Shown: one piece after another, positions 7,253-51,974 of the stretch
Layout of the letters: every line of letters starts with the position of its first letter
How positions within the stretch are numbered: the stretch's first letter is position 1
DNA from: Microbacteriaceae bacterium 3FA27C10
Lineage (GTDB): Bacteria > Actinomycetota > Actinomycetes > Actinomycetales > Microbacteriaceae
Assembly: GCA_005502775.1 (NCBI GenBank)
Contig: SCNI01000026.1
Span: forward strand, 1-53,702
Length of the DNA stretch: 53,702 nucleotides
Reading direction: 5' to 3'
The notes under the pieces: model-generated
The model's database searches: none
The model's input: the letters and a program-made list of their open reading frames with translations, nothing else
What the model was told of the DNA's origin: nothing
Made by a program: the position numbers and the translations under genes

Positions 7253-7418
7253 CCCGCTGCGCGGGCGTTACAGCGCCAAGACCGGCCGCCACATCGTAGT
7301 TCGCTCCCGGCGCTCCGTTCCGGAGTTCTCGAACGCGCCCCTGGCGGGGCTTACTTCGCCCGAGAACTCCGGCACTGCGCACCTCCCGCTCACCATCGAT
7401 GCTCTTGCCGGTTTTGGC
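7253..7418 (+). ncRNA. Structured leader element, copy 1 (upstream of redoxin gene)
   Basis: P0 hairpin CCCGC-TGC-GCGGG is at 7253-7265. The outer stem P1 pairs 7273-7286 (GCGCCAAGACCGGC) with 7407-7418 (GCCGGTTTTGGC). Inside, P2 pairs 7320-7331 perfectly with 7361-7372 (CCGGAGTTCTCG/CGAGAACTCCGG) and encloses P3, GCCCC-TGGC-GGGGC at 7337-7350. Conserved unpaired blocks are ATCGTAGTTCGCTCC (7293-7307) and TTACTTCGCCC (7351-7361). The start codon of the redoxin gene is 29 bases downstream. Three other copies keep the same pairing with different bases. Whether it acts as RNA or folded single-stranded DNA is not known. Confidence 0.75.
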
Positions 7419-7446
7419 ACTTCAAAACGTCTGGGAGGAACAGATC

Positions 7447-7674
7447 ATGGTCACCGTCTATGGCCGAAGCAACTGCCCACAATGCACCGCCACCACGCGA
7501 ACCCTCGAGATCAAGGATGTCGACCACGTCTACCTCGACGTGGAGCAATACCCCGATGCCAACGACTTCCTGCGCTCGCTTGGACACCAGCAGCTCCCCG
7601 TCGTCATCGCCGGTCCGACCCACTGGTCAGGCTTCCGCCCCGACCTCATCGTGGCGCTGGCGCGAGGCAACTGA
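7447..7674 (+). CDS. NrdH-like glutaredoxin/redoxin 1
   Basis: 75 residues from ATG 7447, chosen because a strong Shine-Dalgarno GGGAGGA lies at 7433-7439. The redox site is C-P-Q-C at about residues 11-14, and the C-terminus WSGFRPDLI matches the NrdH signature. NrdH proteins donate electrons to class Ib ribonucleotide reductase or act as general dithiol reductants. No nrdI/E/F genes accompany it here, so it must work with host partners. It directly follows structured element copy 1. A second, diverged NrdH-like gene lies at 51535-51771 behind copy 4. Confidence 0.85.
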   Translation: MVTVYGRSNCPQCTATTRTLEIKDVDHVYLDVEQYPDANDFLRSLGHQQLPVVIAGPTHWSGFRPDLIVALARGN

Positions 7675-7682
7675 ACCTCGAA

Positions 7683-8117
7683 TCACGTGGCAACTCTGTG
7701 AGTTACAGAGTTTGTGAGTTCGTCCTCTGTGGTGCCCTCAAGAGAATCGATATTCGCTAGAAGTAGGTCGATCGCTATGCGGATGAGGGTGTTCTCGGTG
7801 ATGCGCTCTCCACCGGTGCCCTTTGCACGATTCAGGCGCCGCGCGTGCATGGTCAGGTTTGCGTACTGGTCCTCTCGCAGCCGCGCTTCTTTTCGTTCGA
7901 GCTGGCTGTAGTGGGAGTGCCCTTGCGGCGCTGAGAGCTTGGAGCTGGCTCGCTTGGGCGCCTTGGGCGCCTTGGTCGCCTCCTTGTTTGCGGGCGCGGG
8001 ACGCTTCGTAATTGCAACCTTGGGAGCTTGTTCGCCGGCGGCCTTCGGCTGCGCCTGCACTTGCGAAATCGGCTCCGGGAGTCGCCCGAGCATTGTGCTC
8101 AGATCTGCGCGTGCCAT
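7683..8117 (-). CDS. Small partition partner (ParB-equivalent DNA-binding protein)
   Basis: 144 residues from ATG 8117, which overlaps the parA stop (TGATG). The N-terminal 60 residues are basic and Ala/Pro/Lys-rich. The C-terminal part (about 90-130, 'ITENTLIRIAIDLLLANID') has the pattern of a ribbon-helix-helix or small helical DNA-binding domain. A basic small protein coupled to parA and flanked by repeats matches the centromere-binding protein of a type Ib partition operon. It likely binds the GTTACAGAGT-like repeats upstream of parA and autoregulates. No sequence family is recognised with certainty. Confidence 0.68.
   Translation of the reverse strand: MARADLSTMLGRLPEPISQVQAQPKAAGEQAPKVAITKRPAPANKEATKAPKAPKRASSKLSAPQGHSHYSQLERKEARLREDQYANLTMHARRLNRAKGTGGERITENTLIRIAIDLLLANIDSLEGTTEDELTNSVTHRVAT
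7692..7712. repeat. Inverted repeat AACTCTGT...ACAGAGTT
   Basis: A perfect 8-bp dyad with a 5-bp spacer, inside the 3' end of the partition-partner gene. The half-site matches the repeats upstream of parA (for example ACAGAGT near 8811 and AACTCTGT near 8869), so it is probably another binding site of the same protein, flanking the par operon on its other side. Confidence 0.6.
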
Positions 8118-8776
8118 CACTTGCTCCCCACTGTCGCTGGTTCATTGGCCCAGATAGCCATGAGTTCCATAGCCACGTGGGTGTAGTCAAAGATTGCGTT
8201 CGCGTTCTGACGAGTGTCGGGGTACTGCGTTACCACTCGACCTTGCAATGGCGCATCCGAATGGGCCGCATAGAGCCTGACGTACTGACGGAAGCGCGGA
8301 AGCTTCAAGCCGTCGTCGACGAGCTGCTCCCAGTCCTCGAGCTGACCGGGGCGACGACGGTCGATCTTGCTCAGAAGGATGCGGAACGGGAGGCCTCGCG
8401 GCTCAATGTGCGCTCTGATCGTCCTCACCAGTGCGGGCGTGTTCAATGGCTCCGGGTTCAGCGGAAGGATCACGTAGTCGGCGGCGTCGAGAACTGCCGA
8501 CAGTACCGTGGTGTCTTCGAGGCTGCCGGGAGTGTCAACGAAGATCACGTCGTAGGGAAGCTCGCGCATCCGTGCCAGGTTATTGGGATCTACGTCGGCG
8601 GCGAAGTCGAACGGGAGCCCCTCCCCCGCATTTTCGGCCCACCAGGTCGTAGAACCTTGTGGGTCTACGTCAACGACGAGGACACGCGAGTGCTTGGCCA
8701 TGACTGCCGCCAGATTCATGGTGGTGGTGGTCTTCCCGACTCCACCCTTCTGCCCAACCAGCGCAACGATTCTCAT
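8117..8776 (-). CDS. parA: ParA-family plasmid partition ATPase
   Basis: 219 residues. Deviant Walker [14 protein letters not shown] at residues 9-21, A' motif VVDVDPQGS at about 34-42 and Walker B VIFVDTPG at about 77-84 are all intact. It lacks an N-terminal regulatory HTH, which is typical of small type Ib ParA proteins, where the partner protein does the autoregulation. It is coupled to the downstream small basic gene. The repeat-rich region at 8790-9020 lies immediately upstream. It moves plasmid copies apart on the nucleoid before division. Confidence 0.93.
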
Positions 8777-8789
8777 GAGAGCCAGTCTG

Positions 8790-9020
8790 CCCGGTAACGC
8801 CGTAACTTACAGAGTCACGAAGTCGGCGAGTCTGAAAGTTCGGTAGTTCGTATCTAACAGACTCCGTAACTCTGTATGTACGAGAGTTTGTGTATCTGTT
8901 ACTGCGTAAGTTACAGACTCGATGGCTGGGCACACCCGGCCTGTGCCCTACGCCCCTACGCCTCCACGAAAACTACAAACATACGGACTTACAAAGTTAC
9001 AAAGTTACAAAGTTACATGA
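8790..9020. promoter_or_regulatory. Centromere-like (parS/parC) region with dispersed repeats
   Basis: The gap upstream of parA is AT-rich and full of short repeats in both orientations: GTAACTTACAGAGTCAC near 8799, CCGTAACTCTGTA near 8865, GTAAGTTACAGACTC near 8906, and three tandem TTACAAAG units followed by TTACATG at 8989-9018. The common core is TTACA(G/A)A(G). Such arrays are the binding platform of the partition partner and usually contain the par promoter. A matching dyad lies downstream at 7692-7712. Confidence 0.72.
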
Positions 9021-9051
9021 CAGGATGTCGATCCCGACAGGACTCGAGATG

Positions 9052-9309
9052 TCAATCGCCAGACTCATCAGTGAGGGGCGGGTAGCCACCGTCAGCGTGG
9101 GGGAGTGTCTCCATCCACAGCATGGCATCGAGAGCGAGTGCTAGCGCATTCGTAGCGGCTTCGAGCGCCTTCTGAGAGTCTGTCCAGTCGGGGTTGTATC
9201 GATCGCGTGTCATAACGATCCGTCCCTGCTTTTGCAAAACGGTGAGTTGCGTCAGTGACTCACGCACGTTGAGGCGGATGTCGTTGGCTCCGGCCGGTTC
9301 TGGGTTCAT
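9052..9309 (-). CDS. Hypothetical protein, 85 aa
   Basis: 85 residues from ATG 9309. It is soluble, with a predicted helical middle (about 45-68, Ala/Leu-rich) and an acidic C-terminus, and has no recognisable domain. It lies between the par region and a small membrane protein in the same orientation, and is probably a backbone gene. A start at ATG 9213 would give 53 residues. Confidence 0.5.
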   Translation of the reverse strand: MNPEPAGANDIRLNVRESLTQLTVLQKQGRIVMTRDRYNPDWTDSQKALEAATNALALALDAMLWMETLPHADGGYPPLTDESGD

Positions 9310-9337
9310 GTCAGCACATCCAGGGGACTAGATCATT

Positions 9338-9541
9338 TCAGCTATCGGGATAAAGGATTGCATGACCGATCAGGCCGACAATCAGTGGACCGATGATGAG
9401 GAGCAGACCGAGCGCGAAAGCGGCGAGGGCTGCGCGGTTGAAGCCGCGGCGGCCGCGGATCGGTAGCACGCGGGGGAGTACGAGGAGTACAGCGCCGCAG
9501 GCGAAGACAGCGAAGCCGGCCGTCTGGATCGCCTGCATCAT
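9338..9541 (-). CDS. Small two-helix membrane protein
   Basis: 67 residues from ATG 9541, with GAGAGG just upstream supporting this start over a longer one. Two membrane helices (about 5-25 and 36-60) are joined by a short basic loop with RGRRG. The function is unknown. Position among backbone genes suggests a transfer or exclusion role, but nothing in the sequence shows it. Confidence 0.5.
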   Translation of the reverse strand: MMQAIQTAGFAVFACGAVLLVLPRVLPIRGRRGFNRAALAAFALGLLLIIGPLIVGLIGHAILYPDS

Positions 9542-9616
9542 GCACCTCTCTTCGCACACCTTCCCTCTTCAGCGTTGCACATACCTCGCATCCCAGCGGA
9601 CGTGATCCGGGGGAGC

Positions 9617-9662
9617 GCGAGGGGGTAGCCCCCTCGCGGCCGGCCCGTGGAGGGCCGGCCGC
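9617..9662. terminator. Two tandem perfect hairpins
   Basis: GCGAGGGGG-TAG-CCCCCTCGC (9617-9637) and GCGGCCGGCCC-GTGGA-GGGCCGGCCGC (9636-9662) stand back to back just past the stop of the DUF3560 gene. They lack a long T run, which is common for terminators in GC-rich actinobacteria. Confidence 0.7.
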
Positions 9663-9669
9663 TGCGCTT

Positions 9670-10617
9670 TTACGCCGGGCGCTGGTGGGCTTGGATCTCG
9701 ACGTAGGGCGTGGTCATGGTGAATGCGTGTCCTTCGCGTTGGAGGGTGATGATGCTGATGGTCTTGAGGTTCGCTCGCGCGACTTCGTACCACTGGCCTC
9801 GGATGCGTACACGGTCGCCTTTCTGGATTGTTTCGCGGCTGTGGTTGCTGGTCTGGCCGGATTCGACCTGCTGCGCGTGGATGCCTTCCCAGTAGGCGAG
9901 CTGGTCGCGGAGTTCTGCCAGCTGTGGGGCGAGTCGGGCCGTGCGGGCCGCGATGAGCTCCTGGCCGGCCGGTACGTATCCGCGCTCGTCGTCGTAGCGG
10001 TCGGCGGTGATGCGTCGTTCGGTTCGGCGGATGTCGGCGCCGAGTTTTTCGATGCGGTTTGCGACGGTGACGGGGGAGTAGCGGCTGGCCGTGGTGGCAC
10101 GGGCCGCTTCGGCGCGGTCGCGGGCGTGTTCGGTGGCGTTGGTGGCTTCGATGGCGCGGCGGGTGGCGGTGTCGGCTTTGCTGATCGCGTTGCGGTGTCT
10201 GGTTTCGGAGTGGTGGCCGATTTTGATGGGCTCGCCACCGTAGGGGAGGGCGTCGAGTGCGTGACGTTCGCGTTCCCAGGCGGCGTCTTCGGCGGAGCTC
10301 TTGCGCTCGGCCTTGTGCTCGAGCGCAGCTACTCGCTCGGCTTGCCGTGCGATCTTGCCAGCTTCGACGTCGGCGGTTGCGCGAGTGGTTTGGTCGATGG
10401 TCTCGGTGACGTCGAATCCGGCTTCTTCGAGTGCCTCGCGGGTGCGGCGGATGACGTGCCATTTTGGGAGGCGGTCGCGGGACTGGGGGACGTACCAACT
10501 GCTGATACTGCGGCCCCAGCGCCAGCCGGTGCGCTTGAGGACCTCGGCGGTGCCGTCTCCTCGGCTGGTTCCTTCGATCAGAGTTCCCTCTTCGTGGGTG
10601 TGGGTGATGGTGAGCAT
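9670..10617 (-). CDS. DUF3560-family protein
   Basis: 315 residues. The N-terminal 75 residues (WRWGRSISSWYVPQSRD and following) form a compact domain. The middle (about 80-210) is a long charged coiled coil. The C-terminus (about 265-305, KGDRVRIRGQWYEVARAN) looks like an SH3/KOW-type beta domain. The arrangement corresponds to DUF3560, frequent on actinobacterial plasmids; biochemical function is unknown. It is the last of three genes headed by structured element copy 2, with two small genes upstream. Confidence 0.7.
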   Translation of the reverse strand: MLTITHTHEEGTLIEGTSRGDGTAEVLKRTGWRWGRSISSWYVPQSRDRLPKWHVIRRTREALEEAGFDVTETIDQTTRATADVEAGKIARQAERVAALEHKAERKSSAEDAAWERERHALDALPYGGEPIKIGHHSETRHRNAISKADTATRRAIEATNATEHARDRAEAARATTASRYSPVTVANRIEKLGADIRRTERRITADRYDDERGYVPAGQELIAARTARLAPQLAELRDQLAYWEGIHAQQVESGQTSNHSRETIQKGDRVRIRGQWYEVARANLKTISIITLQREGHAFTMTTPYVEIQAHQRPA

Positions 10618-10629
10618 GAGTTGGGCCTT

Positions 10630-10839
10630 TCAGTGTTCGGTGATCGTGTAGCCGGGAAAGAGACCGTCGCCCATCAGCGCGAGCTCTTCGACGGTGGAGT
10701 GCATGAGGTCGTGCTCGTCGAACGGGGTGAGACCCTTCTCCCAGCCCGACCCGTACTGGTGATCCAGCCATCGGGAGGCCAGGTGCACGTCGTTGTCTCC
10801 GATGAGGGTGGTTCCGTCCGGGAGGGTGAGCGTGAGCAC
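10630..10839 (-). CDS. Hypothetical small protein, 69 aa
   Basis: 69 residues, acidic, with beta-rich N-terminus (LTLTLPDGTTLIGDNDVHLA). No known domain is recognised. It sits 12 bases upstream of the DUF3560 gene and 10 bases downstream of another small gene, clearly in one operon. The role is unknown. Confidence 0.55.
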   Translation of the reverse strand: MLTLTLPDGTTLIGDNDVHLASRWLDHQYGSGWEKGLTPFDEHDLMHSTVEELALMGDGLFPGYTITEH

Positions 10840-10849
10840 GGTGGTACTC

Positions 10850-11077
10850 CTAGTGATCGGCGACGGTGACGCCGCGCTCGGCGAGGAGTTCCCGGTTCGC
10901 GGGGGTGATGTTGGCCCATCCGGCGGGGGAGAGAACGGCCACAGGGTCGCCGTCGGCGTCGTTGAGAACGATGCAGGTGCGCACGTCGAGCAGCTGCCCG
11001 GTGCCGGGGCAGAAGATGGTTTTCTGGACGAGGTACTTGACCATCTCGGCGCGGAGGATTTCTTCGAGGTCGTTCAT
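10850..11077 (-). CDS. Hypothetical small protein, 75 aa
   Basis: 75 residues from ATG 11077, fixed by the Shine-Dalgarno GGGAGAG 6 bases upstream. The frame runs further upstream, but only into the structured leader. It contains the segment VQKTIFCPGTGQLLDVRTC, with two cysteines flanking a predicted beta hairpin that could be a small metal or redox site. It is the first gene of the operon behind structured element copy 2. Confidence 0.6.
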   Translation of the reverse strand: MNDLEEILRAEMVKYLVQKTIFCPGTGQLLDVRTCIVLNDADGDPVAVLSPAGWANITPANRELLAERGVTVADH

Positions 11078-11103
11078 GGTGTCTCTCCCTGATCGCTGAC
11101 AAT

Positions 11104-11285
11104 TTTTTTGTGCCTTCCGGCGAGAGATTCGATTGCGAGCGGGAGCGCCTGGAGTGCCCGGAATCTCGGGCGAAATAAGCCCGCAGGGCGCGTCCGAGAT
11201 TGTGGGCACGCAGGGTGCGGAGCGAGCTACGATCGGCCGCCGGAAAGCACAAACAAACCCCTATGGGGCAGTGCCGCGCAGCGGC
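11104..11285 (-). ncRNA. Structured leader element, copy 2 (upstream of DUF3560 operon)
   Basis: Read on the minus strand. P0 is GCCGC-TGC-GCGGC (11285-11273). P1 pairs 11253-11238 (TTTGTGCTTTCCGGCG) with 11122-11107 (CGCCGGAAGGCACAAA): 16 pairs, one of them G-U. P2 is AATCTCG/CGAGATT (11201-11195 with 11168-11162). P3 is GCCC-TGC-GGGC (11189-11179). The conserved blocks CGATCGTAGCTCGCTCC and TTATTTCGCCC are in the same places as in copies 1, 3 and 4. The first start codon lies 27 bases beyond. Confidence 0.75.
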
Positions 11286-11306
11286 TCCGATTCTCGGTCA
11301 GAGCTG

Positions 11307-11325
11307 ACGCCGGCGGCGCCGGCGT
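11307..11325. terminator. Hairpin ACGCCGGC-GGC-GCCGGCGT
   Basis: A perfect 8-bp stem between the ParB gene and structured element copy 2. It may insulate the two units or be part of the leader. No T tract follows. Confidence 0.35.
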
Positions 11326-11398
11326 TCCGTGTTCCCGGCAGGGAATGCTGTAAATGCAATAGTTTTTCGAGTCGGCCTCCGTGCCGACGCCGTGACGG

Positions 11399-11439
11399 GG
11401 CCCGGATCGGCAGGGGAGAGGGTGCTGCCGATCCGGGCC
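11399..11439. terminator. Strong hairpin after the ParB gene
   Basis: Arms GGCCCGGATCGGCAG (11399-11413) and CTGCCGATCCGGGCC (11425-11439) pair over 15 bp with an 11-nt loop, 11 bases beyond the parB stop. It is a probable intrinsic terminator without a T run, and it separates parB from the next leader. Confidence 0.72.
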
Positions 11440-11449
11440 GGTCTAAGGG

Positions 11450-12928
11450 TTACTCGTCGAAGATTCCGTCGTCCTCACCCGTCATCTCGTCCTCATCCGT
11501 GGGTGCGGGCTCGATTTCGTCTGCCTGTGCTTCGTAGGCGGTTCGCTGGGCGGCGCGTGCTTCCTGCAGCTCGGCCTGCTTGTCGATGACAATCTGCTCG
11601 ACCTCGGACAGCGGGTAGCCCCATGCCGCGATTTGCGCGAAGTAGGCAGCGGCCGCGCGGTCGGGGTTCCGCCAGGTGTTGACGCTGGTGCCACCCTCGA
11701 TTGCGCCCAGCACCACGGCCAGGGATACGTGCACGGCTTTCGTGGGAGTGGCCTCGATGATCGCGGCCAACTTGTCGGGGGAGTAGTACCCGGACCGCTC
11801 GACGTCGAAGAACTCGTGCGCGAGCACGTTCCCGTTCTGCGTGCCCCGCGCTGCATCGGCGGCGAACTCGGTCAGGCCGCGCCCCACGAACCGGGCCGCG
11901 TCCTTCGGGAGGGTCTTCCGGTTCACCAGACCCGCGAGCCAGGCTCGGCGCACGGTCTCGGCGGATTTCCACGCCTTGTTGTTGGCGATCAGCACCTTCC
12001 GCTCAGCTTTCTCGTCCTCGGTCATCGGCTGCCGGACCTCACCGTTCGCCGCGACCTTCTTGAATCCAGCCTCCTTGAACCCGTCGGTGGGGAGGTAGTA
12101 GCGGGTCAGGACTTCGCCCTGCCAGTCGGTGCTCACGAACACCGCCCGTCCCTCGATGTCGGCGATGTCCTCGACGGTGGCGCGCTCACCCGCCGCGGTG
12201 GCAAGTTCCTGGATGCTGGTGTGGTCGTCCTTCTCCCACGTCGAGGGCTGACGCTCCAACACCACGAAGCCGCGCCCTGCCGCCTCGTCCTGTGCGGCGG
12301 TGATGGCCTGGGTGCGGGCGCGGTCGTCGCGGGCGCGCTGCGCCGCATGCTCGAACCCTCCGGGGTTCTCGGTCGCGACCTCGATCAGGTTCGCCACTGT
12401 GGCGTCGTCGCCCTCGAATTCAATCAGCACCGCCGCCTGATCCAGTGTCAGTTCGTGCTGGTGGATCGCGGTCGCGGCGGTCGCGTTCTCCGCCACAGCG
12501 ATCCCAGCCTCGACGGTGGCTCGTTTCACACCGACCCGCTTCGCGATCGTCGCCACGCTCAGCCCTTCGAACGCCAGCTGCTGGTACGCCGCCGCGCGGT
12601 CGCCGTCGGTGATCGCTTTCCGCTGATCGTTCTCCACGATCTGCTCGATGATCCGCGCCGCAGTCTGATCATCCGCATTCGTGATGTACACCGGGATCGA
12701 CGCCACACCCGCCTCCCGCGCACCGAGGGTACGGCGCTGACCCGCGCGCACGAGCACGTTGCCGTGCTCGTCCCGGCGAGCAAGCACCGGCATCAGCACG
12801 CCGAACTGCTTGATGGTGGCCACGAAGTCCTTGTCCACGGGGGCGCTCGGTCGCACGTTCGCCTCCAACACCAGCACGCTCGGGTCGATGTGCTCCAACG
12901 TTCCCAGCGCAGTAGTCGTGTCAGTCAT
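11450..12928 (-). CDS. ParB/Srx-domain DNA-binding protein
   Basis: 492 residues. The N-terminal ParB/sulfiredoxin-like domain (about 15-90) carries VRAGQRRTLGAREAG, the equivalent of the CTP-binding GERR box with Gln replacing Glu. A helix-turn-helix follows at about 125-150 (GLSVATIAKRVGVKRATVEA). The long C-terminal region (about 200-470) is mixed and ends in an acidic tail. Length and lack of an adjacent parA distinguish it from the par operon at 7.7-8.8 kb. Large stand-alone ParB-domain proteins are common in conjugative plasmids, often in the leading region. Structured element copy 3 lies directly upstream and a terminator directly downstream. Confidence 0.82.
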   Translation of the reverse strand: MTDTTTALGTLEHIDPSVLVLEANVRPSAPVDKDFVATIKQFGVLMPVLARRDEHGNVLVRAGQRRTLGAREAGVASIPVYITNADDQTAARIIEQIVENDQRKAITDGDRAAAYQQLAFEGLSVATIAKRVGVKRATVEAGIAVAENATAATAIHQHELTLDQAAVLIEFEGDDATVANLIEVATENPGGFEHAAQRARDDRARTQAITAAQDEAAGRGFVVLERQPSTWEKDDHTSIQELATAAGERATVEDIADIEGRAVFVSTDWQGEVLTRYYLPTDGFKEAGFKKVAANGEVRQPMTEDEKAERKVLIANNKAWKSAETVRRAWLAGLVNRKTLPKDAARFVGRGLTEFAADAARGTQNGNVLAHEFFDVERSGYYSPDKLAAIIEATPTKAVHVSLAVVLGAIEGGTSVNTWRNPDRAAAAYFAQIAAWGYPLSEVEQIVIDKQAELQEARAAQRTAYEAQADEIEPAPTDEDEMTGEDDGIFDE

Positions 12929-12950
12929 TTCTCTCTCCGTTCAACTTTTT

Positions 12951-13124
12951 TTCGCCTGTCTGGCAAGCGCAGCGATGGAGAGCGGACGGCCTGGAGTGCG
13001 TGCCGTGTCGGGCGAAATAAGCCCGCCAGGGCGCGTCCGACACGGTGGGCACGGAAGGCAGGGAGCGAACTATCGTGGAGTGGCCAGGCAGACGAACAAC
13101 CCACAGACGGTGCCGCGCAGCGGC
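12951..13124 (-). ncRNA. Structured leader element, copy 3 (upstream of parB-like gene)
   Basis: Minus strand. P0 is GCCGC-TGC-GCGGC (13124-13112). P1 pairs 13096-13083 (TTCGTCTGCCTGGC) with 12964-12951 (GCCAGACAGGCGAA), 13 of 14 positions paired. P2 is CCGTGTCGG/CCGACACGG (13045-13037 with 13011-13003), 9 bp perfect. P3 is GCCC-TGGC-GGGC (13032-13021). The blocks ACGATAGTTCGCTCC and TTATTTCGCCC are conserved. The parB-like start codon is 23 bases beyond the outer stem. Confidence 0.75.
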
Positions 13125-13257
13125 TCCACCCAGGGAGCCGCCGGCGACTCACGAAGCTCCGCCAAGGGAGCCACTGGCGCGGATGGTTCGGTTGTGTGTT
13201 GACCAGGACGGTGCGATAATCGTTGTACGACGGACCGGTTACCGGGACGTTGCCAGC

Positions 13258-13289
13258 CGAAGGCCCCGCACGCGGGGCCTTCGTTCTTT
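13258..13289 (+). terminator. Intrinsic terminator with T-rich tail
   Basis: CGAAGGCCCC-GCACGC-GGGGCCTTCG (13258-13283) followed by TTCTTT. On the plus strand it would end a short transcript initiated near the -10-like GATAAT at 13215-13220. On the minus strand it lies just past the DUF3800 stop, so it may serve both directions. A plus-strand RNA of about 60 nt is possible but unproven. Confidence 0.7.
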
Positions 13290-13298
13290 AATCGCAGC

Positions 13299-14015
13299 TC
13301 ACGGCACCCACGTCCAGTTATGGGTGGTGCTCGGATCGATCTGAGCGGTAAGCCGACGCATTGTTGCGGCGGCCGCAGGATGCTTCTCAACGACCGTGTT
13401 CCGGCGATGATGCACATACGCGGCGAGATCCGCGATCTGAAGACCACCGCTCGAGCGAGACGACGCGAAATTGATGGGCGCGGAGATCCGGGTCAGCTGA
13501 CTCGACCGATACCCGGGGGTCCCGATGAGTTGGTAGCTCTCGAACTGCTTCTTGTGGACATCTTGTGTGGCGATCTCGTCGGCAACAACGATCACCGGAT
13601 CGGTCTCGCCGGTTCGCCGCGCATAGTCGTCGATTCGCTCAAGGAGATGACTGAACACGATGCTGTGTGGCTGGTCCGGGTAGGAGTAGCGGGCATTGAG
13701 ACGGTTGATGTCGAGGCCGCGGAACAGGTACACGACGCCCGCATCCTGGGCGACGTGGAGCGCTGCCCGGTAGATGCCGGCGGCCTCGCGGTGTTTCCCC
13801 CTGAGGGGCTTCCACTCACCCGACCCGCCCATGAGCTCGTGACCGTGGAATTCCGCGTCCGGGGGAGTGCCATGCAGCTGCGATGTGGTCTCCCGGATGC
13901 GGCTGAGCCCTTCGTCGACTCGATCCCACGCACTCTGCGGAGCCACCGCGGCCGCGATGTAGTAGTGGTCCTTGTTGTAGGACTCGTCGATATAGGCGAT
14001 CAGCATCGGACCCAT
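13299..14015 (-). CDS. DUF3800-family protein
   Basis: 238 residues from ATG 14015, preceded by GCGAGAG; an upstream in-frame start adds 8 residues. The N-terminus MLIAYIDESYNKDHYYIAAA carries the DUF3800 signature (aspartate-containing IDES strand, as in RNase H-like folds), and a conserved Asp/Asp pair recurs later (VVADE; GGLQIADLAAYV). DUF3800 proteins are presumed metal-dependent nucleases of unknown role. They are widespread on mobile elements and near defence genes, and have been reported beside unexplained structured-RNA motifs. Structured element copy 3 lies 175 bases away. A gene fragment and cargo genes lie upstream. Confidence 0.8.
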   Translation of the reverse strand: MGPMLIAYIDESYNKDHYYIAAAVAPQSAWDRVDEGLSRIRETTSQLHGTPPDAEFHGHELMGGSGEWKPLRGKHREAAGIYRAALHVAQDAGVVYLFRGLDINRLNARYSYPDQPHSIVFSHLLERIDDYARRTGETDPVIVVADEIATQDVHKKQFESYQLIGTPGYRSSQLTRISAPINFASSRSSGGLQIADLAAYVHHRRNTVVEKHPAAAATMRRLTAQIDPSTTHNWTWVP

Positions 14016-14052
14016 TCTCTCGCCTCGGCGACCCGTCACCGTTGTAGTCGCC

Positions 14053-14132
14053 CTAACGGCCAGGCCGCGGAATGGTCACGGCGGAGCGCCAGACCCACGC
14101 CTGGTGGATGGCGCCGCCCTGGGTTTCCCACA
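14053..14132 (-). pseudogene. 3' fragment of a homologue of the gene at 15590-15913
   Basis: Translation of this strand gives WETQGGAIHQAWVWRSAVTI followed by PRPGR and a stop. The first 20 residues equal residues in the C-terminus of the 107-aa protein encoded at 15590-15913. The match begins abruptly at 14131, next to the cargo genes. The fragment looks like the original 3' end of that gene, cut off when 1.5 kb containing two membrane-protein genes entered, or a partial duplication. Confidence 0.75.
14071..14131. repeat. Direct repeat flanking the two-gene cargo, left copy
   Basis: 61 bp matching 15617-15677 at all but four positions. The pair brackets genes 14229-15556. Confidence 0.85.
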
Positions 14133-14228
14133 GCGGCCGTTCACGGCCGGCCTGACCGGCTGTAATCCGGATCGCCTCTCGATCGAACGGTATAGTCCCG
14201 AACAGGCGGGAACGACGAGCGGGGAGCA

Positions 14229-43846: not shown

Positions 43847-43887
43847 ACGGGAATGATATCCGTTCTCAACTGTCTCAAGGCTCAGCA

Positions 43888-43911: not shown

Positions 43912-43918
43912 TCACGGT

Positions 43919-44842: not shown

Positions 44843-44867
44843 TCCTCCCGCGCCGTCGACGAGCTCA

Positions 44868-45596: not shown

Positions 45597-46198
45597 GCCG
45601 GCTCCTCCAGCACCCGGTCGATGAGTGATTCCAGGATCGATACCTCGGTGACACGGCCGAGGATGCGAGCGGCCACTCGCCCTTGCCGGTCCAGCACCAA
45701 GGTGGTCGGCACGGCGTTCGGTGCGACCTGCCCGGCGAAGCTCAGCTGCACGCCGGCATCGGTGTCGATGATCGAGGGGTAGGTGACTCCGAACGTGGTG
45801 GCGAACTCTTGTGCGGTCGCGGCCTGGTCCCTGACGTTAACGCCGAGGAATCCGACGTTCTGTGCGAGGTACTGCTGGTAGACCGCTTCGAGATCGGGCG
45901 CTTCCAGGCGGCAGGGTGCGCAGGCGGCGTACCAGAAGTTCACTACGAGCACTTCGCCGGCGTAATCCGATGAGCTGATCTGCTCCCCGTTCTCGCCGGT
46001 GCCGGCGAAGGTGATCGGGGCTGTTCGTTGGGTTTCGGTGAGCTCGAGGACCGATCCGTCGCCGGCGACGTAACCGCTGTCGGTGACGCTGTTGGTCAGC
46101 TCGTCGGTCCCACCGGCCGCGCAGCCGGAGAGGACGAGGAGGAGGATGGCAGCGGCACCCGAAACCGCTGCCATCCGGCTATTGGGCGATCGCGGCAT
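45593..46198 (-). CDS. TlpA/ResA-like thioredoxin lipoprotein
   Basis: 201 residues from ATG 46198. A signal peptide with lipobox LSGC at about 23-26 makes it a membrane-anchored lipoprotein. The thioredoxin fold has active site WYAACAPCRLEAPDL (C-A-P-C) and the cis-proline in NAVPTTLVLD. It probably reduces apocytochrome c or copper-protein cysteines outside the cell, recharged by CcdA. It overlaps the DsbA-like gene by 20 bases. Confidence 0.9.
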   Translation of the reverse strand: MPRSPNSRMAAVSGAAAILLLVLSGCAAGGTDELTNSVTDSGYVAGDGSVLELTETQRTAPITFAGTGENGEQISSSDYAGEVLVVNFWYAACAPCRLEAPDLEAVYQQYLAQNVGFLGVNVRDQAATAQEFATTFGVTYPSIIDTDAGVQLSFAGQVAPNAVPTTLVLDRQGRVAARILGRVTEVSILESLIDRVLEEPA

Positions 46199-46910
46199 CA
46201 AGTTGCGCCTTGAAGCCGTCGAGACTGTCGATGGTCATCTTCTCCCCGTTGAGGAAGAAGGTGGGGGTCGAATCGACGCCGAGCGCGACGCCCTCGTCGT
46301 AGTCCTGCAGGACGCGTTCGAGGGTGGCCGGGTCGGCGACTGCCGCATCGTAGGCGGCCATGTCGAGGCCGAGCTTTTCCGCATAGGTGCGGAACATCGG
46401 CGATAGATCCTGTTGGCTCTCTCCCCATGACTTCTGCGTCTCGAACATCATCTTGTACATCTCCTCGAACGCGCCCTGCTGTGACGCCGCCTCGACCGCT
46501 ACTGCGGCGTTGCGGGAATTGAAGTGCGAGGGAATCGGGAAGTAGCGGGTGACGAAGGTGATTTGGCCTTTGTATTCCTCGCGGAACTGCTCCACATAGG
46601 GGTAGAACGCACCGCAGGCTTCGCATTCGAAGTCGAGGAACTCCACCAGGGTGACTTTCCCGTCGGGAGCTTCGTCGAGAACGTGACTGTTGTCTCGCAC
46701 GACGGATGCGCTTTGGGCGGCTTCGGCGGTGCGGCTGACGCTCTGGGTGACGCTGACAGCGATGATCGAGATTCCGACGGCGATCACGGCGAAGACCGCG
46801 ATGAGGACGACGATCACGAGGGTGCGTTTGGGCTTTCGCTGTGCAGCCAGTTGTTCCGCCGTGGCGCGCGCGGCTTGGGTGCGAGCAGAGGGCGTTTTCT
46901 TCTGATTCAT
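46179..46910 (-). CDS. DsbA-like membrane-anchored thiol oxidoreductase
   Basis: 243 residues. A basic N-terminus, one membrane helix at about 31-55, then a DsbA/thioredoxin-4 domain with active site DFECEACGAFYPYV (C-E-A-C) and cis-Pro in GVDSTPTFFLNGE. Such proteins form or isomerise disulfides in exported proteins of actinobacteria. With CcdA and TlpA in the same operon, both oxidising and reducing branches are present. M23 gene upstream, 18 bases away. Confidence 0.92.
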   Translation of the reverse strand: MNQKKTPSARTQAARATAEQLAAQRKPKRTLVIVVLIAVFAVIAVGISIIAVSVTQSVSRTAEAAQSASVVRDNSHVLDEAPDGKVTLVEFLDFECEACGAFYPYVEQFREEYKGQITFVTRYFPIPSHFNSRNAAVAVEAASQQGAFEEMYKMMFETQKSWGESQQDLSPMFRTYAEKLGLDMAAYDAAVADPATLERVLQDYDEGVALGVDSTPTFFLNGEKMTIDSLDGFKAQLDAAIAQ

Positions 46911-46928
46911 GGGTCCGGTTCCGTTTCG

Positions 46929-48095
46929 TCAGTTTCGTGCGGAGATCCAGGCGAATGGATCGACAGGGGTGTCTTCGACATGGATCTCGAGGTGCGTGTG
47001 CGCACCGGTGGAGACCCCGGTGTTACCGACGGCGCCGATCTGCTGGCCGGCGACCACGAGCTGTCCTTCGGTCACCACCGGTGATCCCGTGAGCATGTGG
47101 CCGTACCAGCTGCTGACGTTCACCCCGTCGATGACGTGGTCGATGACGACGTAGACGCCGAGGCCGCCCTGATCGGTTTCTTGGACCAGTCGGACGACTC
47201 CGGCGGCAACAGCGTTCACTGGCGTGCCCTGTCCCGGGGTGAAGTCGACACCCTTGTGGTTGGAGCTCGCGCCAGCCGTTGGGGCGACACGAGGACCGAA
47301 CCCGTCGCTGATGGGCACACCGACCGGGAATGGCCACTGCACGGCGCTGGTCGGGTTGTTGGTGAAGGTGTTAGCGGTGCGGTATCCGGCAACTGCAGCC
47401 TTCTTCTCAGCGATCACCTCCGCCTCGGTGACGGAATACCCGTCTCGGCTGATTGGCTGGCCGGGGGCCGCCGCGACGGTAAGGAGCTCCTGCGGTTGGA
47501 GTTCGGTGGCTGATGGAGTGGAGGCGAAGGATAGGGACGAGTTGGTGGCCGAAAGCGAGGTGGCTGCGACCAGAAGTGCGGAGAACGACAGCGCCATCAA
47601 AGCCCGCGCGCCGGGTGCTCGGCGCTTCGCACGCACTGGCACGGATGTCGCGGGTGACGGAGTCGCGAGAGGAACGTGGCGCCGAGGCGGTGCCGCGCGC
47701 CCTCGTGGTGCAACTGGTGTGATGTCAGCAACCCATGCGGTCGCGACGACTGGAGCCGTGGCCAGAATCTCATTGGAAGTAACGACCTTGAGCGATTCTG
47801 ATGCCGTGCTGCGGCCTGGGTCCTTGACGCTCCGCGCATCGTCGGGATCGGCGTCTCGTTCCTCGGCTGGTGCTTGTCGGGGCGGCGAGCCTCGGCCCGC
47901 TGAGGCCGACTGCTGTTCTTCTGCGATCCGCTCGAGTTGGCGTATCTCACGGCGCGTGAGAGCGACCGGAGGCCCCGGTTCGAGAGCGTGGCGGCCGCGC
48001 GCGTTCTGGGTTGGGGTTGGAAGTTCTGAGCGCTCTCGTTCACGCAGCGCTCGACGGCTGGGAAGAGCGCCGTCTTGGTCGGGTGTTTGCGTCAC
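46929..48095 (-). CDS. M23 metallopeptidase 2 with long N-terminal region
   Basis: 388 residues from GTG 48095. The cytoplasmic-side N-terminus is long, charged and Pro/Arg-rich and includes LTRREIRQLERIAEE, resembling the N-terminus of the NlpC/P60 protein at 28513-29328. One membrane segment lies at about 158-178 (ARALMALSFSALLVAATSL). The C-terminal M23 domain has zinc ligands in SSNHKGVDFTPG (H-x3-D) and THLEIHV. The domain core is almost identical to that of the other M23 protein. First gene of the M23-DsbA-TlpA-CcdA operon, behind a DUF6153-like gene. Confidence 0.88.
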   Translation of the reverse strand: MTQTPDQDGALPSRRALRERERSELPTPTQNARGRHALEPGPPVALTRREIRQLERIAEEQQSASAGRGSPPRQAPAEERDADPDDARSVKDPGRSTASESLKVVTSNEILATAPVVATAWVADITPVAPRGRAAPPRRHVPLATPSPATSVPVRAKRRAPGARALMALSFSALLVAATSLSATNSSLSFASTPSATELQPQELLTVAAAPGQPISRDGYSVTEAEVIAEKKAAVAGYRTANTFTNNPTSAVQWPFPVGVPISDGFGPRVAPTAGASSNHKGVDFTPGQGTPVNAVAAGVVRLVQETDQGGLGVYVVIDHVIDGVNVSSWYGHMLTGSPVVTEGQLVVAGQQIGAVGNTGVSTGAHTHLEIHVEDTPVDPFAWISARN

Positions 48096-48250
48096 AAATC
48101 GTGCTTTCGTACTGCACCAGCAACTCAGGGACGGCCATTTTCGAAGCGTGAACGCGGGAATTGTCCCGTGCGTGACGTCGAATCCGTCCGGAGAGCCGCT
48201 AGCGGCGGGTCTGGCGGTCGGTAGGACGCTCGGAGGCGTCCGCGGATCGC

Positions 48251-48688
48251 CTAGGTACGGATGACTGTCAGTGCGAAAAGTGATGGTGCGGTGCGCGGGA
48301 TGGCGCGCGCAACGGCAAGGCGATGCCTCTGCGGAGGAGTCGCTGCCGGTTCGCCCGGCGAAGGTTCTCGGGCTCTCACGGCTCGTTTCACCAACGCGAG
48401 AACGCCGAGTGCGCACAACACCCCTGCAGCAGCACATCCGATCAGACCGGCGGCCGCGATCATCACGTCGGATGACGTAGCTGTGGCGATCGAATCGACA
48501 TGGTCAGTGCTATCGACAAGCACATCCGCCATGAGCACGGAGGGCTGGCCTGAGTGACTGACCGTGGTGTCGAGCGCGTGCATCGACAACAGACCCATGA
48601 CGACGGCGAGCAGGGCAACCAGCCCCACAACGACCTTGGTCAACGTCGCGACTGCGGGTCGGGAGGAGGGTCGCGATACAGATCGCAC
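48251..48688 (-). CDS. DUF6153-like membrane protein 3
   Basis: 145 residues. Start fixed at GTG 48688 by the strong Shine-Dalgarno AGGAGG (48693-48698) 4 bases upstream; a longer frame exists. Two membrane helices (about 15-33 and 76-98) around a polar loop of about 40 residues, basic segment KRAVRAREPS, C-terminus ending SLFALTVIRT. Third paralogue of the family in this island. The shared promoter motif at 48792-48815 drives it. Confidence 0.65.
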   Translation of the reverse strand: MRSVSRPSSRPAVATLTKVVVGLVALLAVVMGLLSMHALDTTVSHSGQPSVLMADVLVDSTDHVDSIATATSSDVMIAAAGLIGCAAAGVLCALGVLALVKRAVRAREPSPGEPAATPPQRHRLAVARAIPRTAPSLFALTVIRT

Positions 48689-48791
48689 GTCTCCTCCTAG
48701 CCGATTGGTTCCGGTCACGAATTCATTGCCGGTCGTTCGCAACGCGTTCCGGTGCGGGTGGCTGCGGACGGATCAATGATACAGACCCCGC

Positions 48792-48815
48792 TTAATACAG
48801 GAAAACTTGAACTAT
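48792..48815 (-). promoter_or_regulatory. Shared promoter/operator motif, copy 4
   Basis: On the minus strand ATAGTTCA (48815-48808), ten bases ending CTG, then -10 box TATTAA (48797-48792), matching the lspA and CDF promoters in content and spacing. Transcription would start near 48785 toward the DUF6153-like gene and the M23-DsbA-TlpA-CcdA operon. Confidence 0.68.
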
Positions 48816-48874
48816 TGCCGGTAGGTTACACGAGCGAACAGCCGCAGTAGCTGGGAGCCCCAACAGACAGGAGA

Positions 48875-49648
48875 ATGAACACCAAAGTGGAACTCTCGTT
48901 CGCTTTTACCCCGGATCTACTCGTCGCATTCCTCACCCTCTTCGTCCTCGAGATCGTGCTGGGTGTCGACAACGTCATCTTCATCTCGATCCTCGCGAGC
49001 AGACTTCCCGCCGCACAACAGGCCAAAGCTCGTGTGCTCGGTCTCACCCTGGCCATGCTGGCCCGGATCGCTTTACTCTTCGGGGCTTCCTGGATTATCA
49101 CCCTGACAACCGATCTGTTCAGCGTGTTCGGCAAAGGGTTCTCGGGCCGCGATCTCATCTTGATCGGCGGCGGATTGTTCCTCGTCTACAAAGCGGTTCG
49201 TGAGATTCACGACAAGCTGGAGGGGCGGAGTGAGGCCGCTGCAGGCGCCGGCAAGGCTGCATCGTTCCGTGCCGTGATCGTGCAGATTGTTCTTCTGGAC
49301 ATCGTCTTCTCGTTCGACTCCGTGATTACAGCGGTCGGGATGGTCGACAATCTCGTCGTCATCATTACCGCGGTCGTGCTGTCCTTCGGTGTGATGATCC
49401 TGAGCTCGAAGTACATCTTCGCGTTCGTGAACCGGCATCCGACCGTGAAGATGTTGGCCCTGGCATTCCTGGTGCTGATCGGTGCGTTCCTGATCGCTGA
49501 TGGGTTCGAAGTGAAGATCGATAAGGCGCTCATCTACGGACCGATCGCGTTCGCTATCGTCGTGGAGGCTTTGAATCTGGCGTACAAGCGACGCCAGCAC
49601 AAGCGTGGCGAAGTGACGCCCGCACCGGTTGATCTGCATGAGAGGTAG
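48875..49648 (+). CDS. TerC-family integral membrane protein
   Basis: 257 residues with seven to nine membrane helices. The family's metal-binding signatures EIVLGVDNVIFISI and VFSFDSVITAVGM are intact. TerC members export Mn2+ or support tellurite and envelope-stress resistance, and in several bacteria metallate exported enzymes. It is divergent from DUF6153-like gene 3. It is followed by a SURF1 gene that starts within or just after its end. Confidence 0.92.
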   Translation: MNTKVELSFAFTPDLLVAFLTLFVLEIVLGVDNVIFISILASRLPAAQQAKARVLGLTLAMLARIALLFGASWIITLTTDLFSVFGKGFSGRDLILIGGGLFLVYKAVREIHDKLEGRSEAAAGAGKAASFRAVIVQIVLLDIVFSFDSVITAVGMVDNLVVIITAVVLSFGVMILSSKYIFAFVNRHPTVKMLALAFLVLIGAFLIADGFEVKIDKALIYGPIAFAIVVEALNLAYKRRQHKRGEVTPAPVDLHER

Positions 49649-49760
49649 CCAGCTGGAGTCCTCTCGCGGTTCTATCGAGTCGCGACGCCGCGATAGTGCT
49701 GTTTCGCGCTCCCAGCGCGCGGACGGGCCTGTCGCGGTGTACGACACAGTCACGGAAGGC

Positions 49761-50774
49761 ATGACGGGCTGGCGTTTCCTGCGCACGTGGCGGTGGTTCG
49801 GGTACATCGCCGCAACCGCGGTTTTCGCGATCGTCTGCGTAGCGCTTTCCTCCTGGCAGTACGGTCGCGGTCAGCAGACCTCGGCAGAGAACACCATCGT
49901 CGCTGCCAATTTCTCGGCGTCTCCCATCCCGCTCGAGGTGGCGCTGCCTACCCGCTCGTCATATGACGAGAGCCAGAATTGGCAGCGGGTCAGCCTCAGC
50001 GGGGTCTACCTCCCCGATGACGAGCTCTCAATCCGCAATCGTCCGCTCGCCGGCGCGAACGGATTCGAGGTTGTCACGCCCATCCGGCTCGACGATGGCT
50101 CCACCTTCTTCATCGACCGCGGTTGGGTGGCACCGTCACCCGACGACGCACTCTCCCCCGATCTCATCCCATCTGCTCCCTCCGACCGGGTCGATGTCGT
50201 CGTGCGTCTGCGACCGAGCGAGGCACCACGCGGAACCGGAACGGTATCGGACGGACAGATCGGATCGGTGAACCTTCCCGCCATGCAGCAGGAAATCGAC
50301 GCCCCCACATACTCAGGAGCGTACGGCGTGCTCGACAGCCAATCCCCCGCCGGCGCATCCGGGCTGGAGCCACTTCAAACGTCTGTGCCTCTCAAGGACG
50401 TCGGCACTCACTACTCCTACACCCTTCAATGGCTCCTTTTTGGAATCCTTGGTTTCGTTGCTCTCGGCCTGGGTGCCCGCCGAGAATATCGACGCCTCAA
50501 CGTCGATGAGCCTGACGAGAAAGCTCGCGCATCCCAGCGACAGCGCAAGCGCGCCAGGAAACCGTTCAGCGAGGAGGAGCTCGAAGACGAGGCAATCGAT
50601 GGCTACATCCCACTCAGCCGGTGGGGCTCACCGCAGAGCACCTCCCCAATTGCCCGTCCAGCGCTTCGACCGCTCGCTCAAAGAACCGGCAGTATTGAGC
50701 CAACAAGCAGTTCGGATGAACCGACCGTCTATGTCATCTACACCGACCCGGATGCGGATGGAGAGCAACCCTGA
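49761..50774 (+). CDS. SURF1-family cytochrome oxidase assembly protein
   Basis: 337 residues from ATG 49761; GTG 49737 is an alternative. First membrane helix at about 13-33 followed by SSWQYGRGQQ, the family's W-Q-x2-R motif; central extracytoplasmic domain with NRPLAGANGFEVVTPIRLDDG and FFIDRGWV; second helix near residue 226-245; a charged, disordered C-terminal tail of about 85 residues. SURF1 assists heme a insertion into cytochrome oxidase. It ends the accessory island. No oxidase subunit gene is on the plasmid. Confidence 0.92.
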   Translation: MTGWRFLRTWRWFGYIAATAVFAIVCVALSSWQYGRGQQTSAENTIVAANFSASPIPLEVALPTRSSYDESQNWQRVSLSGVYLPDDELSIRNRPLAGANGFEVVTPIRLDDGSTFFIDRGWVAPSPDDALSPDLIPSAPSDRVDVVVRLRPSEAPRGTGTVSDGQIGSVNLPAMQQEIDAPTYSGAYGVLDSQSPAGASGLEPLQTSVPLKDVGTHYSYTLQWLLFGILGFVALGLGARREYRRLNVDEPDEKARASQRQRKRARKPFSEEELEDEAIDGYIPLSRWGSPQSTSPIARPALRPLAQRTGSIEPTSSSDEPTVYVIYTDPDADGEQP

Positions 50775-50853
50775 CGTCTGACTATGTCGCGTCTGGCTTC
50801 CGATGCCGCACGATGAGCGCGTCGGTCTCGGCGGCGGGGGCGATAATCGCGGC

Positions 50854-51093
50854 ATGCTCTTCATCGCGCGCGGCATCGAGAATGACCACTACTGGGTGGT
50901 CCGGGAACTTGACGGTGCGCTCGTGGAGACGCCCTGGCGGGTTGAGCACGAGCAGGATGGTTACCGGCTGAGCCACGCTGACGACGCCAGCGAGACGGTG
51001 CGCGGCTACGCGCTGGGCGCGTTTGCGACGCCAGAGTCAGCAGTGGGGGCGCTTCGCGCATCCTTTAGCTCTGGCGCCAGCGATACCGCGTAG
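50854..51093 (+). CDS. Hypothetical protein, 79 aa
   Basis: 79 residues from ATG 50854; GATAAT at 50841-50846 suggests a leaderless start, while ATG 50803 would add 17 residues. Mixed alpha/beta, with ENDHYWVVRELDGALVETPWRV. No domain recognised. It is convergent with ssb across a 12-bp-arm hairpin and marks the resumption of backbone. Confidence 0.5.
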   Translation: MLFIARGIENDHYWVVRELDGALVETPWRVEHEQDGYRLSHADDASETVRGYALGAFATPESAVGALRASFSSGASDTA

Positions 51094-51128
51094 GTTTTGC
51101 CGATAGGTCGCGGCGGAACCTACGCGGT
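51085..51128. terminator. Bidirectional terminator-like hairpin
   Basis: ACCGCGTAGGTT (51085-51096) and AACCTACGCGGT (51117-51128) form a perfect 12-bp stem between convergent genes. Confidence 0.75.
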
Positions 51129-51136
51129 GTGCTCTG

Positions 51137-51505
51137 CTACTTCCCGTCGTCCTCACGAGTGACGCGACGCACTTGCGCTACAGCCCGGCTGAGGTCGACG
51201 CCGATGGTGTCGGCAGCGATGACGCGTCCATAGGCTTTGGAGTCCTCGGGCCCCCAGCTACTGGTGTGTTCCCGACCGACGACGATGACGGCGTCGCCTT
51301 TGTGGAGGGTGGCAGCCGCGTTCTCGCCGAGCTCGAACTTGGCTTCCACGAAATGGGTGGTGGGATCGGCGTGCTCGATGTACTTCCCGCCCCGGTACTC
51401 CCCCGTGTTTTCGATCACCCGGAACTTCGTGATGCTGATACTGCCCGCCTGAACGACTTCGACGTCAGCGGCGAGGTTTCCGGTGATTGTGCGTGGTGTG
51501 GACAT
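51137..51505 (-). CDS. ssb: Plasmid single-stranded DNA-binding protein
   Basis: 122 residues from ATG 51505. OB-fold pattern TITGNLAADVEVVQAGSISI ... FRVIENTGEYRGGKYIE ... GDAVIVVGREHTSSW, ending without the usual acidic C-terminal DDDxPF tail (it ends RREDDGK-like), so it may not recruit host repair proteins in the normal way. Plasmid SSBs coat incoming DNA during conjugation. It follows redoxin 2 and structured element copy 4 in what appears to be the distal end of the transfer operon or a separate leading-region unit. Confidence 0.88.
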   Translation of the reverse strand: MSTPRTITGNLAADVEVVQAGSISITKFRVIENTGEYRGGKYIEHADPTTHFVEAKFELGENAAATLHKGDAVIVVGREHTSSWGPEDSKAYGRVIAADTIGVDLSRAVAQVRRVTREDDGK

Positions 51506-51534
51506 GATGGTTCTCCTTCGATGGTGGTGTGTGG

Positions 51535-51771
51535 CTAGGTGAGTTTGCTGATGAGGTCGGGGCGGAAGCCGGACCAGTGGTTGTGATCGTCGGCGACGAC
51601 GACGGGGGCTTGGCTGTAGCCGAGATCCTCGGTGACGTACTCGAGTGCCGCGTCGCTGGTGGTGAGGTCGATCTCCTCGTACCGGATGCTTTTGCTGTCG
51701 AGTGCTCGCTTGGTGGCGGTGCACTGCACGCAGGCGGGTTTGGAGTAGACCGTCACCGTTGTCTCAGCCAT
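51535..51771 (-). CDS. NrdH-like glutaredoxin/redoxin 2
   Basis: 78 residues from ATG 51771 with a strong GGGAGAGGAAG upstream. Redox site A-C-V-Q-C-T, C-terminus HWSGFRPDLISKL. About half the residues match redoxin 1 (7447-7674). Both sit directly behind a structured element, so gene and leader may have been duplicated together. 29 bases separate it from ssb. Confidence 0.85.
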   Translation of the reverse strand: MAETTVTVYSKPACVQCTATKRALDSKSIRYEEIDLTTSDAALEYVTEDLGYSQAPVVVADDHNHWSGFRPDLISKLT

Positions 51772-51799
51772 GACTTCCTCTCCCTCATCAACATTTTTC

Positions 51800-51974
51800 T
51801 GCCTGTCTGGCAAGGGGAATCGGTTGCGAGCGGGAGGCGTGGAGTGCTGGCGTTGTCGGGCGAAATCAGCCTCTTGAGGCGCGTTCGGGAACGTCGGAAC
51901 GGAGAGCCGGGAGCGAGTTACGGTGAATCGCCAGACAGGTGAAAAACCACGTCTTTCTCTTGCCGTGTAGCGGC
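51800..51974 (-). ncRNA. Structured leader element, copy 4 (upstream of redoxin 2 and ssb)
   Basis: Minus strand. P0 is GCCG-CTACA-CGGC (51974-51962). P1 is CCTGTCTGGC/GCCAGACAGG (51939-51930 with 51811-51802), 10 bp perfect. P2 is weaker (CGTTCCCG/CGACAACG, six of eight pairs). P3 is GCCTC-AA-GAGGC (51880-51869). Conserved blocks are ACCGTAACTCGCTCC and TGATTTCGCCC. The redoxin 2 start codon lies 29 bases beyond. Confidence 0.75.

Follow-up and report, generated by a model that had tools for sequence, protein, structure and literature searches.

A probable family of Frpo/ssi-like single-stranded DNA promoters in plasmids of Microbacteriaceae

The stretch of DNA analyzed here (the window) is contig C34 of the draft genome of Microbacteriaceae bacterium 3FA27C10, with 53,702 bases out of 4.0 Mb in 115 contigs. 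It carries four copies of a structured element, each placed directly ahead of a gene. Very probably this element represents a family of single-stranded DNA (ssDNA) promoters of Microbacteriaceae plasmids, comparable to Frpo of the F plasmid and ssi of ColIb-P9. During conjugative transfer the incoming strand is single-stranded in the recipient. We propose that the transferred strand, as the template of the genes, would fold at each element into a long hairpin resembling partly opened promoter DNA. The upper stem would present a GGMACG block at the -35 position followed by a purine-rich spacer; the non-template arm would carry a TAnnnT -10 hexamer within a weakly paired helix; an internal loop would stand open at about -6 to -1; and the lower stem P1, of about 15 bp, would act as the downstream duplex. 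RNA polymerase would start near the base of P1 and enter the gene after a further 40-50 nt or so. Synthesis of the complementary strand would then remove the hairpin and turn the promoter off. Genes switched on in this manner would encode ParB, ArdC, SSB, DprA, glutaredoxin/NrdH, DUF3846 proteins and uncharacterised ones, and a newly arrived plasmid could express its first genes at once. Transcription from ssDNA, polymerase binding, the start site and activity on the single strand only are what we infer from comparative evidence.

In the window, the copies, their promoter-like letters and the genes behind them are located as follows.

7253..7425, + strand: copy 1 (P0 to the A-run), upstream of a glutaredoxin/NrdH-like gene and opposite in orientation to the other three copies
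7253..7265, + strand: P0 mini-hairpin of copy 1, loop TGC in sense, GCA in antisense
7293..7298, - strand (antisense strand): -10-like hexamer TACGAT of copy 1
7316..7321, - strand: GGAACG block of copy 1 at the -35 place, 17 nt from the -10-like hexamer
7447..7671, + strand: glutaredoxin-family gene behind copy 1 (Pfam PF00462)
11103..11285, - strand: copy 2
11228..11233, + strand (opposite to the gene): -10-like hexamer TACGAT of copy 2
11205..11210, + strand: GGCACG block of copy 2, spacing 17 nt
10853..11077, - strand: small gene behind copy 2, no family match
12946..13124, - strand: copy 3
13071..13076, + strand: -10-like hexamer TATCGT of copy 3, displaced by a one-letter slip in alignment A3
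13048..13053, + strand: GGCACG block of copy 3, spacing 17 nt
11453..12928, - strand: ParB-family gene behind copy 3 (Pfam PF02195; TIGR00180 slightly under its cut-off)
51793..51974, - strand: copy 4
51919..51924, + strand: -10-like hexamer TACGGT of copy 4
51896..51901, + strand: GGAACG block of copy 4, spacing 17 nt
51538..51771, - strand: glutaredoxin-family gene behind copy 4 (Pfam PF00462)

A sequence-only reading of the window had described four copies sharing a P0 mini-hairpin, the stems P1, P2 and P3 and conserved blocks. Inspection and an alignment of the four copies (A1, mean column identity 70%) confirmed their places, strands and parts. As had also been noted, each copy is sense to its own downstream gene and ends shortly before the start codon (7447 +, 11077 -, 12928 - and 51771 -), which is separated from the 3' arm of P1 by 22-30 nt. 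The statement that the element belongs to no named family agrees with the Rfam search, which gave no match in the window at gathering scores; a permissive search restricted to 10950-13300 returned three weak matches, all of them off the elements. The P3 hairpin is present in the window copies, but the family has three apical modules that can replace one another, and P3 (GCCC/GGGC) is just one of them. Each of these exchangeable forms has an A+T-rich piece in a G+C-rich setting, which may be an UP-like contact. A pattern search of the whole genome with the apical part found exactly the four window copies, and a narrower pattern found one. With a covariance model a fifth copy was detected in the same genome before a small uncharacterised gene (G000:C30:18526-18677, + strand; L074).

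The element is not confined to this genome. Blastn with copy 3 as the query found 19 plasmid records; in 15 the alignment spanned 80% or more of the query (Clavibacter 8, Cryobacterium 4, Herbiconiux 3, and Mycetocola, Arthrobacter, Microbacterium and Rathayibacter 1 each). Covariance model R1, built from 25 copies (alignment A2, made from sequence only), had matches in 64 of 398 sampled genomes of Microbacteriaceae, which belong to 27 of 85 genera, the genome of the window being counted. In the order-wide search 9 of 396 genomes matched; six were Microbacteriaceae including the window's genome, and the matches in the other three, from other families, were weak and partial (E 1.4e-4 to 2.3e-4). 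Of 396 genomes searched phylum-wide, only that of the window matched. Altogether 71 sources gave 153 matches at E<=0.01, 150 of which were aligned (A3). Removal of identical and short sequences left 137 distinct full-length copies, a set that includes the copies used for model building. A degenerate or enlarged relative before an ArdC-like gene of a Mycetocola plasmid (L005:14785-14990), in which the apical module is kept and the lower part differs, was excluded from the model. Pattern matches were also seen in contigs of metagenome-assembled genomes labelled Acidobacteriaceae, Clostridiales and proteobacterium (L125, L126, L128), which may be misbinned plasmid contigs or chance matches. A phage origin was considered and rejected, since a search of the phage collection turned up just a single short match, to copy 2, of the kind expected by chance.

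Covariation in the proposed stems was already evident in A2, where the score of the 25 copies was 0.309 (shuffled mean 0.103; no more than 0.098 with slid partners), 81.2% of the cells paired against 67.8% after shuffling, and double changes occurred in 29 of 45 pairs. Because the structure had been derived from the same sequences, a phylogeny-aware count was added on A3. It gave 234 joint changes, 170 of them from Watson-Crick to Watson-Crick, where 58.0 were expected, and 31 of the 45 pairs reached p<=0.01 compared with 1 of 292 random column pairs. The covariation score of A3, an alignment that leans towards the structure through being fitted to the covariance model, was 0.371 versus 0.102 for shuffled and at most 0.071 for slid columns. 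RNAalifold on the first alignment (32 copies) recovered only P1 and fragments, owing to gaps. A chance resemblance of the copies is rejected by the covariation in A2 and A3. The claim of a selected, covarying structure ahead of backbone genes was thus upheld on 137 distinct copies, and with homologues added, as had been suggested along with it, the stems covary more than phylogeny explains.

The folding strand is the antisense (template) DNA strand rather than a sense RNA. A mismatch written A.C in the sense letters corresponds to G.T, a wobble pair, in the antisense strand, and among single-sided changes from Watson-Crick pairs there were 119 of the sense type A.C/C.A and 45 of the type G.T/T.G (binomial p 7e-9). 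Unpaired columns lean the opposite way (144 changes in the A.C-type versus 187 in the G.T-type direction), so that mutation bias cannot account for the A.C excess. With DNA parameters the antisense strand folded more stably in 135 of 137 copies, by a median of 6.1 kcal/mol, with one tie and one reverse case. The positive control behaved alike: in Frpo sequences antisense was favored in 8 of 8, with 34 A.C against 17 G.T. The negative control, TPP riboswitches, favored sense in 24 of the 25 that were oriented (34 matches were listed, 30 had loci, and 5 of these 30 could not be oriented and were dropped). Cobalamin riboswitches, a second negative control, gave six matches in 2 of 20 genomes and were not used further. 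A three-base loop closes P0 in 104 of the 137 copies; it reads GNA on the antisense strand in 58 of these 104 and on the sense strand in 1. Loops of the type d(C-GNA-G) are unusually stable in DNA.

These findings bear directly on the original interpretation as a transcribed leader. A 5' leader RNA transcribed from an ordinary upstream promoter, such as a riboswitch, a thermosensor or a leader bound by a protein, would explain covarying stems that precede start codons in sense orientation. It would, however, place the fold on the wrong strand according to the 119 to 45 mismatch ratio, and the sense strand folds less stably than the antisense strand in 135 of 137 copies with DNA parameters and in 136 of 137 with RNA parameters, opposite to the TPP riboswitches. 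The z-scores of the sense-RNA fold were -4.01, -3.88, -1.03 and 0.04 for copies 1 to 4, i. e. unusually stable in two of four and near zero for copies 3 and 4. Nor was a sigma70-like promoter enriched in the 150 nt upstream (mean best score 6.65 versus 6.99 for shuffled sequence), and the relation to the relaxase strand described below is not predicted by a leader. With tolerated mismatches, fold energy and P0 loops all pointing to the antisense strand, the leader interpretation was not borne out, and we regard it as quite improbable.

The same data argue against a duplex DNA binding site of a plasmid regulator or partition protein that is repeated before its regulon. Conserved blocks, several copies and ParB among the downstream genes would suit such a site, which the sequence-only reading had named as a possible refutation of its structure. 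But neither 170 Watson-Crick-to-Watson-Crick double changes in long stems nor a strand bias of the mismatches is called for by binding to duplex DNA, and a site of this kind is extremely unlikely.

All 137 copies hold the hexamer TAnnnT, the usual actinobacterial -10, on their antisense strand, 136 by alignment column and copy 3 of the window by eye, in a set gathered with a covariance model that was itself built from TAnnnT-bearing copies; a copy without TAnnnT would probably lose only a few bits in model score. The T and A columns show no change on the tree, compared with 11 in the median column and with 18 and 25 in the columns facing them. As the facing columns vary while the T and A columns are fixed, this T and A are conserved in their own right and not for the sake of pairing. 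Such a motif arose on either strand in 53 of 20,000 column shuffles. The spacing between TAnnnT and the GGMACG-like block is 17 nt in 96 of 137 copies, 16 nt in 21, 18 nt in 14 and 19 nt in 6, and the block at the -35 place is GGCACG or GGAACG in 100 of 137. The fold places the hexamer in a weak helix and the letters after it in an internal loop that is open, beyond which comes P1. This layout, as modeled, can be read as -35, spacer, -10, opened discriminator and downstream duplex.

The position of the relaxase genes may relate the folding strand to conjugation. The search for TrwC and MOBP relaxases covered 38 of the 64 genomes, and strands were tallied on 108 copies among the matches listed. 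In this tally 61 of 63 copies on 22 contigs lie on the strand of the relaxase; all 22 contigs agree by majority and 20 without exception, the two exceptions being on G028:C1 and G103:C5. The tally omits a TrwC match of G319:C1, which is separated by about 2.1 million bases from two copies that face opposite ways, as well as the second TrwC match of G028:C1, a below-cut-off match of G217:C3, and the copies G045:C4 and two of G139, which are on contigs without a relaxase match. The window contig had no TrwC or MOBP match in a search for both; the sole relaxase match of its genome, a MOBP relaxase on contig C30, lies 9 kb beyond the fifth copy on the same strand. On the plasmids pCI2, pP27867_2 and pA19BH1, elements and relaxase share a strand. 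The same strand relation exists in F, where ssb, psiB and traI are all on the + strand, and in ColIb-P9, where ssb, psiB, ardA and nikB are all on the + strand. According to PMC11541004, the relaxase side of a plasmid enters the recipient last. Taken with the shared strand, this means that the transferred strand would be the template of the element genes; the folding, antisense strand of the elements would be the transferred one in each plasmid.

Several observations weigh against an ssDNA promoter. GGMACG is not the canonical TTGACA, and none of the top variants listed is TTGACA-like. A scan for -35 and -10 boxes on the antisense strand of Frpo1 and Frpo2 of F found none at the scan threshold, which leaves the reading of the boxes without a positive control. 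A P0 stem of at least 5 pairs plus triloop is present in 97 of 137 copies and not in all. Kinship among the plasmids and among the copies means that the counts are not independent. The gene-body control also leaned towards a more stable antisense strand, to a smaller extent (84 versus 51, median 1.9 kcal/mol). RNA parameters, too, favored antisense in 136 of 137 copies (96 of 137 in the control), so that fold energy does not exclude an antisense RNA. Such an RNA, or its folded part, could act on the downstream mRNA. Against it, TAnnnT used as a duplex promoter would direct transcription away from the hairpin, which would be missing from the transcript, an argument confined to TAnnnT; the 58 to 1 bias of GNA loops in P0 fits DNA hairpins, given the stability of d(GNA) loops; and the relaxase relation is not predicted. 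We therefore consider an antisense RNA very improbable.

Orientation is a further point of this kind. Copy 1 of the window is inverted, and among the matches listed 11 of 30 multi-copy contigs, the window included, have copies in both orientations. If only one strand is transferred, hairpin promoters on it could not serve copies of either orientation alike. Nine of these eleven mixed contigs have no relaxase used in the tally, and 82 of 93 copies on the listed multi-copy contigs are on the majority strand. One could imagine an independently evolved class of ssDNA promoters with a two-strand program, though we think this unlikely. In the recipient, the transferred strand would activate the majority copies; the inverted copies (ahead of one type of glutaredoxin gene in the genus of the window and of the MRVFIID-type gene elsewhere) would be active on the other strand, when it is single-stranded in the donor or serves as lagging-strand template. 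Inversion of a glutaredoxin copy relative to the others was observed in the window at 7253-7425 (+) and in a Herbiconiux plasmid at L009:23285-23434 (-).

The placement of the copies bears on their proposed use as promoters for gene expression. Within 80 nt downstream of the match, 108 of 137 copies have a motif resembling a ribosome-binding site together with a start codon and at least 40 codons, versus 6 of 137 on the other side; 96 of the 108 are at 16-30 nt from the match end. The 135 downstream open reading frames, which were picked mechanically, include 27 for ParB, 18 for glutaredoxin/NrdH, 14 of a type starting with MRVFIID, 12 for DUF3846, 10 each for ArdC and DprA, 5 for SSB and 16 unassigned ones. 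According to PMC7213743, ArdC is required in the recipient, which fits an early expression.

An alternative with the same strand logic is a priming site or single-strand origin on the transferred strand, which would serve complementary-strand synthesis and influence gene expression only secondarily. Frpo itself reportedly has a role in both transcription and primer synthesis, as the title of a 1997 paper by Masai and Arai is said to express it. Yet priming would not need several copies per plasmid, each followed closely and at a constant spacing by a ribosome site and a start codon. A role mainly in priming is therefore quite improbable, while the roles of priming site and promoter are not exclusive.

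The element resembles Frpo (Frpo1 and Frpo2 of F) and the ssi of ColIb-P9 in that a stem-loop is found on the template strand of the downstream gene with a more stable antisense fold, a -10 hexamer is rebuilt within the hairpin, several copies occur per plasmid, the genes lie on the relaxase strand, and they are of the sorts found in leading regions (SSB, ParB-like, anti-restriction). It differs from them in its length (about 150 nt versus about 330 nt), in having TAnnnT and GGMACG in place of canonical boxes, in its separate P0 mini-hairpin and three exchangeable apical modules, and in its range, which comprises Microbacteriaceae and an Arthrobacter plasmid. Blastn with copies 2 and 3 found no enterobacterial plasmid and no sequence relation to Frpo, and blastn with Frpo2 gave no actinobacterial record among the best 5000 matches listed (genus tally). 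Thus two marks of Frpo/ssi members, sequence homology and a canonical -35, are absent, and the element looks like a separate ssDNA-promoter family in soil and plant actinobacteria.

Two other known systems invite comparison. Like the element, the EGeRS of pLS20-type Gram-positive plasmids is a regulatory sequence that recurs ahead of the establishment genes on a conjugative plasmid. In PMC8708921, EGeRS is described as longer, with a predicted fold without promoter and with the transferred strand as the non-template. In contrast, the relaxase relation and the fold strand of the element point to the template strand, and no duplex promoter was enriched upstream. The single-strand origins (sso), e. 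g. of ICEBs1, are also hairpins working in single-stranded plasmid DNA, but they are usually not placed before each gene of a set.

We found no earlier description of such a promoter in Actinomycetota in the open-access literature. In the relevant parts of PMC11541004 and PMC9849209, ssDNA promoters are defined by homology and by E. coli boxes, which would make those of other lineages hard to see. So far they have been shown in a few enterobacterial plasmids; here a large family from Actinomycetota is accompanied by comparative strand evidence. The ratio of A.C to G.T mismatches, the fold asymmetry and the P0 loops provide a general test for such promoters anywhere. In addition, the family marks the first-expressed plasmid genes, many of them uncharacterised, as candidates for roles in anti-defence or establishment.

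One of these is the small protein starting with MRVFIID(T/A), found behind 14 of 135 elements (L084, L089, L092, L094, L096 and others). The element in front of it often diverges from one that precedes ArdC or ParB. For one member there was no match in Pfam, PHROGs or PADLOC, and searches of uncharacterised downstream proteins in PHROGs and PADLOC likewise gave no match. A further conserved leader, about 90 nt long (GCCCCGTAGTTGG...ACCACGGGAC), separates the element from the start codon in the ParB copies of one genus, with examples as follows.

L062:3653-3748: second leader
L068:5556-5649: second leader
L069:4310-4403: second leader; similar loci exist

In the window, an alternative frame near copy 1 (7449-7717) had no family match. 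The surroundings of the copies contain the following further genes.

9670..10617, - strand: DUF3560 protein (Pfam PF12083), farther along the strand of copy 2
8117..8776, - strand: ParA-family ATPase in the same block, no element of its own found
1262..2911, - strand: SCO6880-family protein of a conjugation/secretion cluster, a plasmid context (NCBIfam NF042935, 61.1 bits versus a cut-off of 60)

A cargo block of the window, at 25041-49648, encodes metal and cation transporters, CopC/CopD and ResB/DsbD-type cytochrome assembly proteins.

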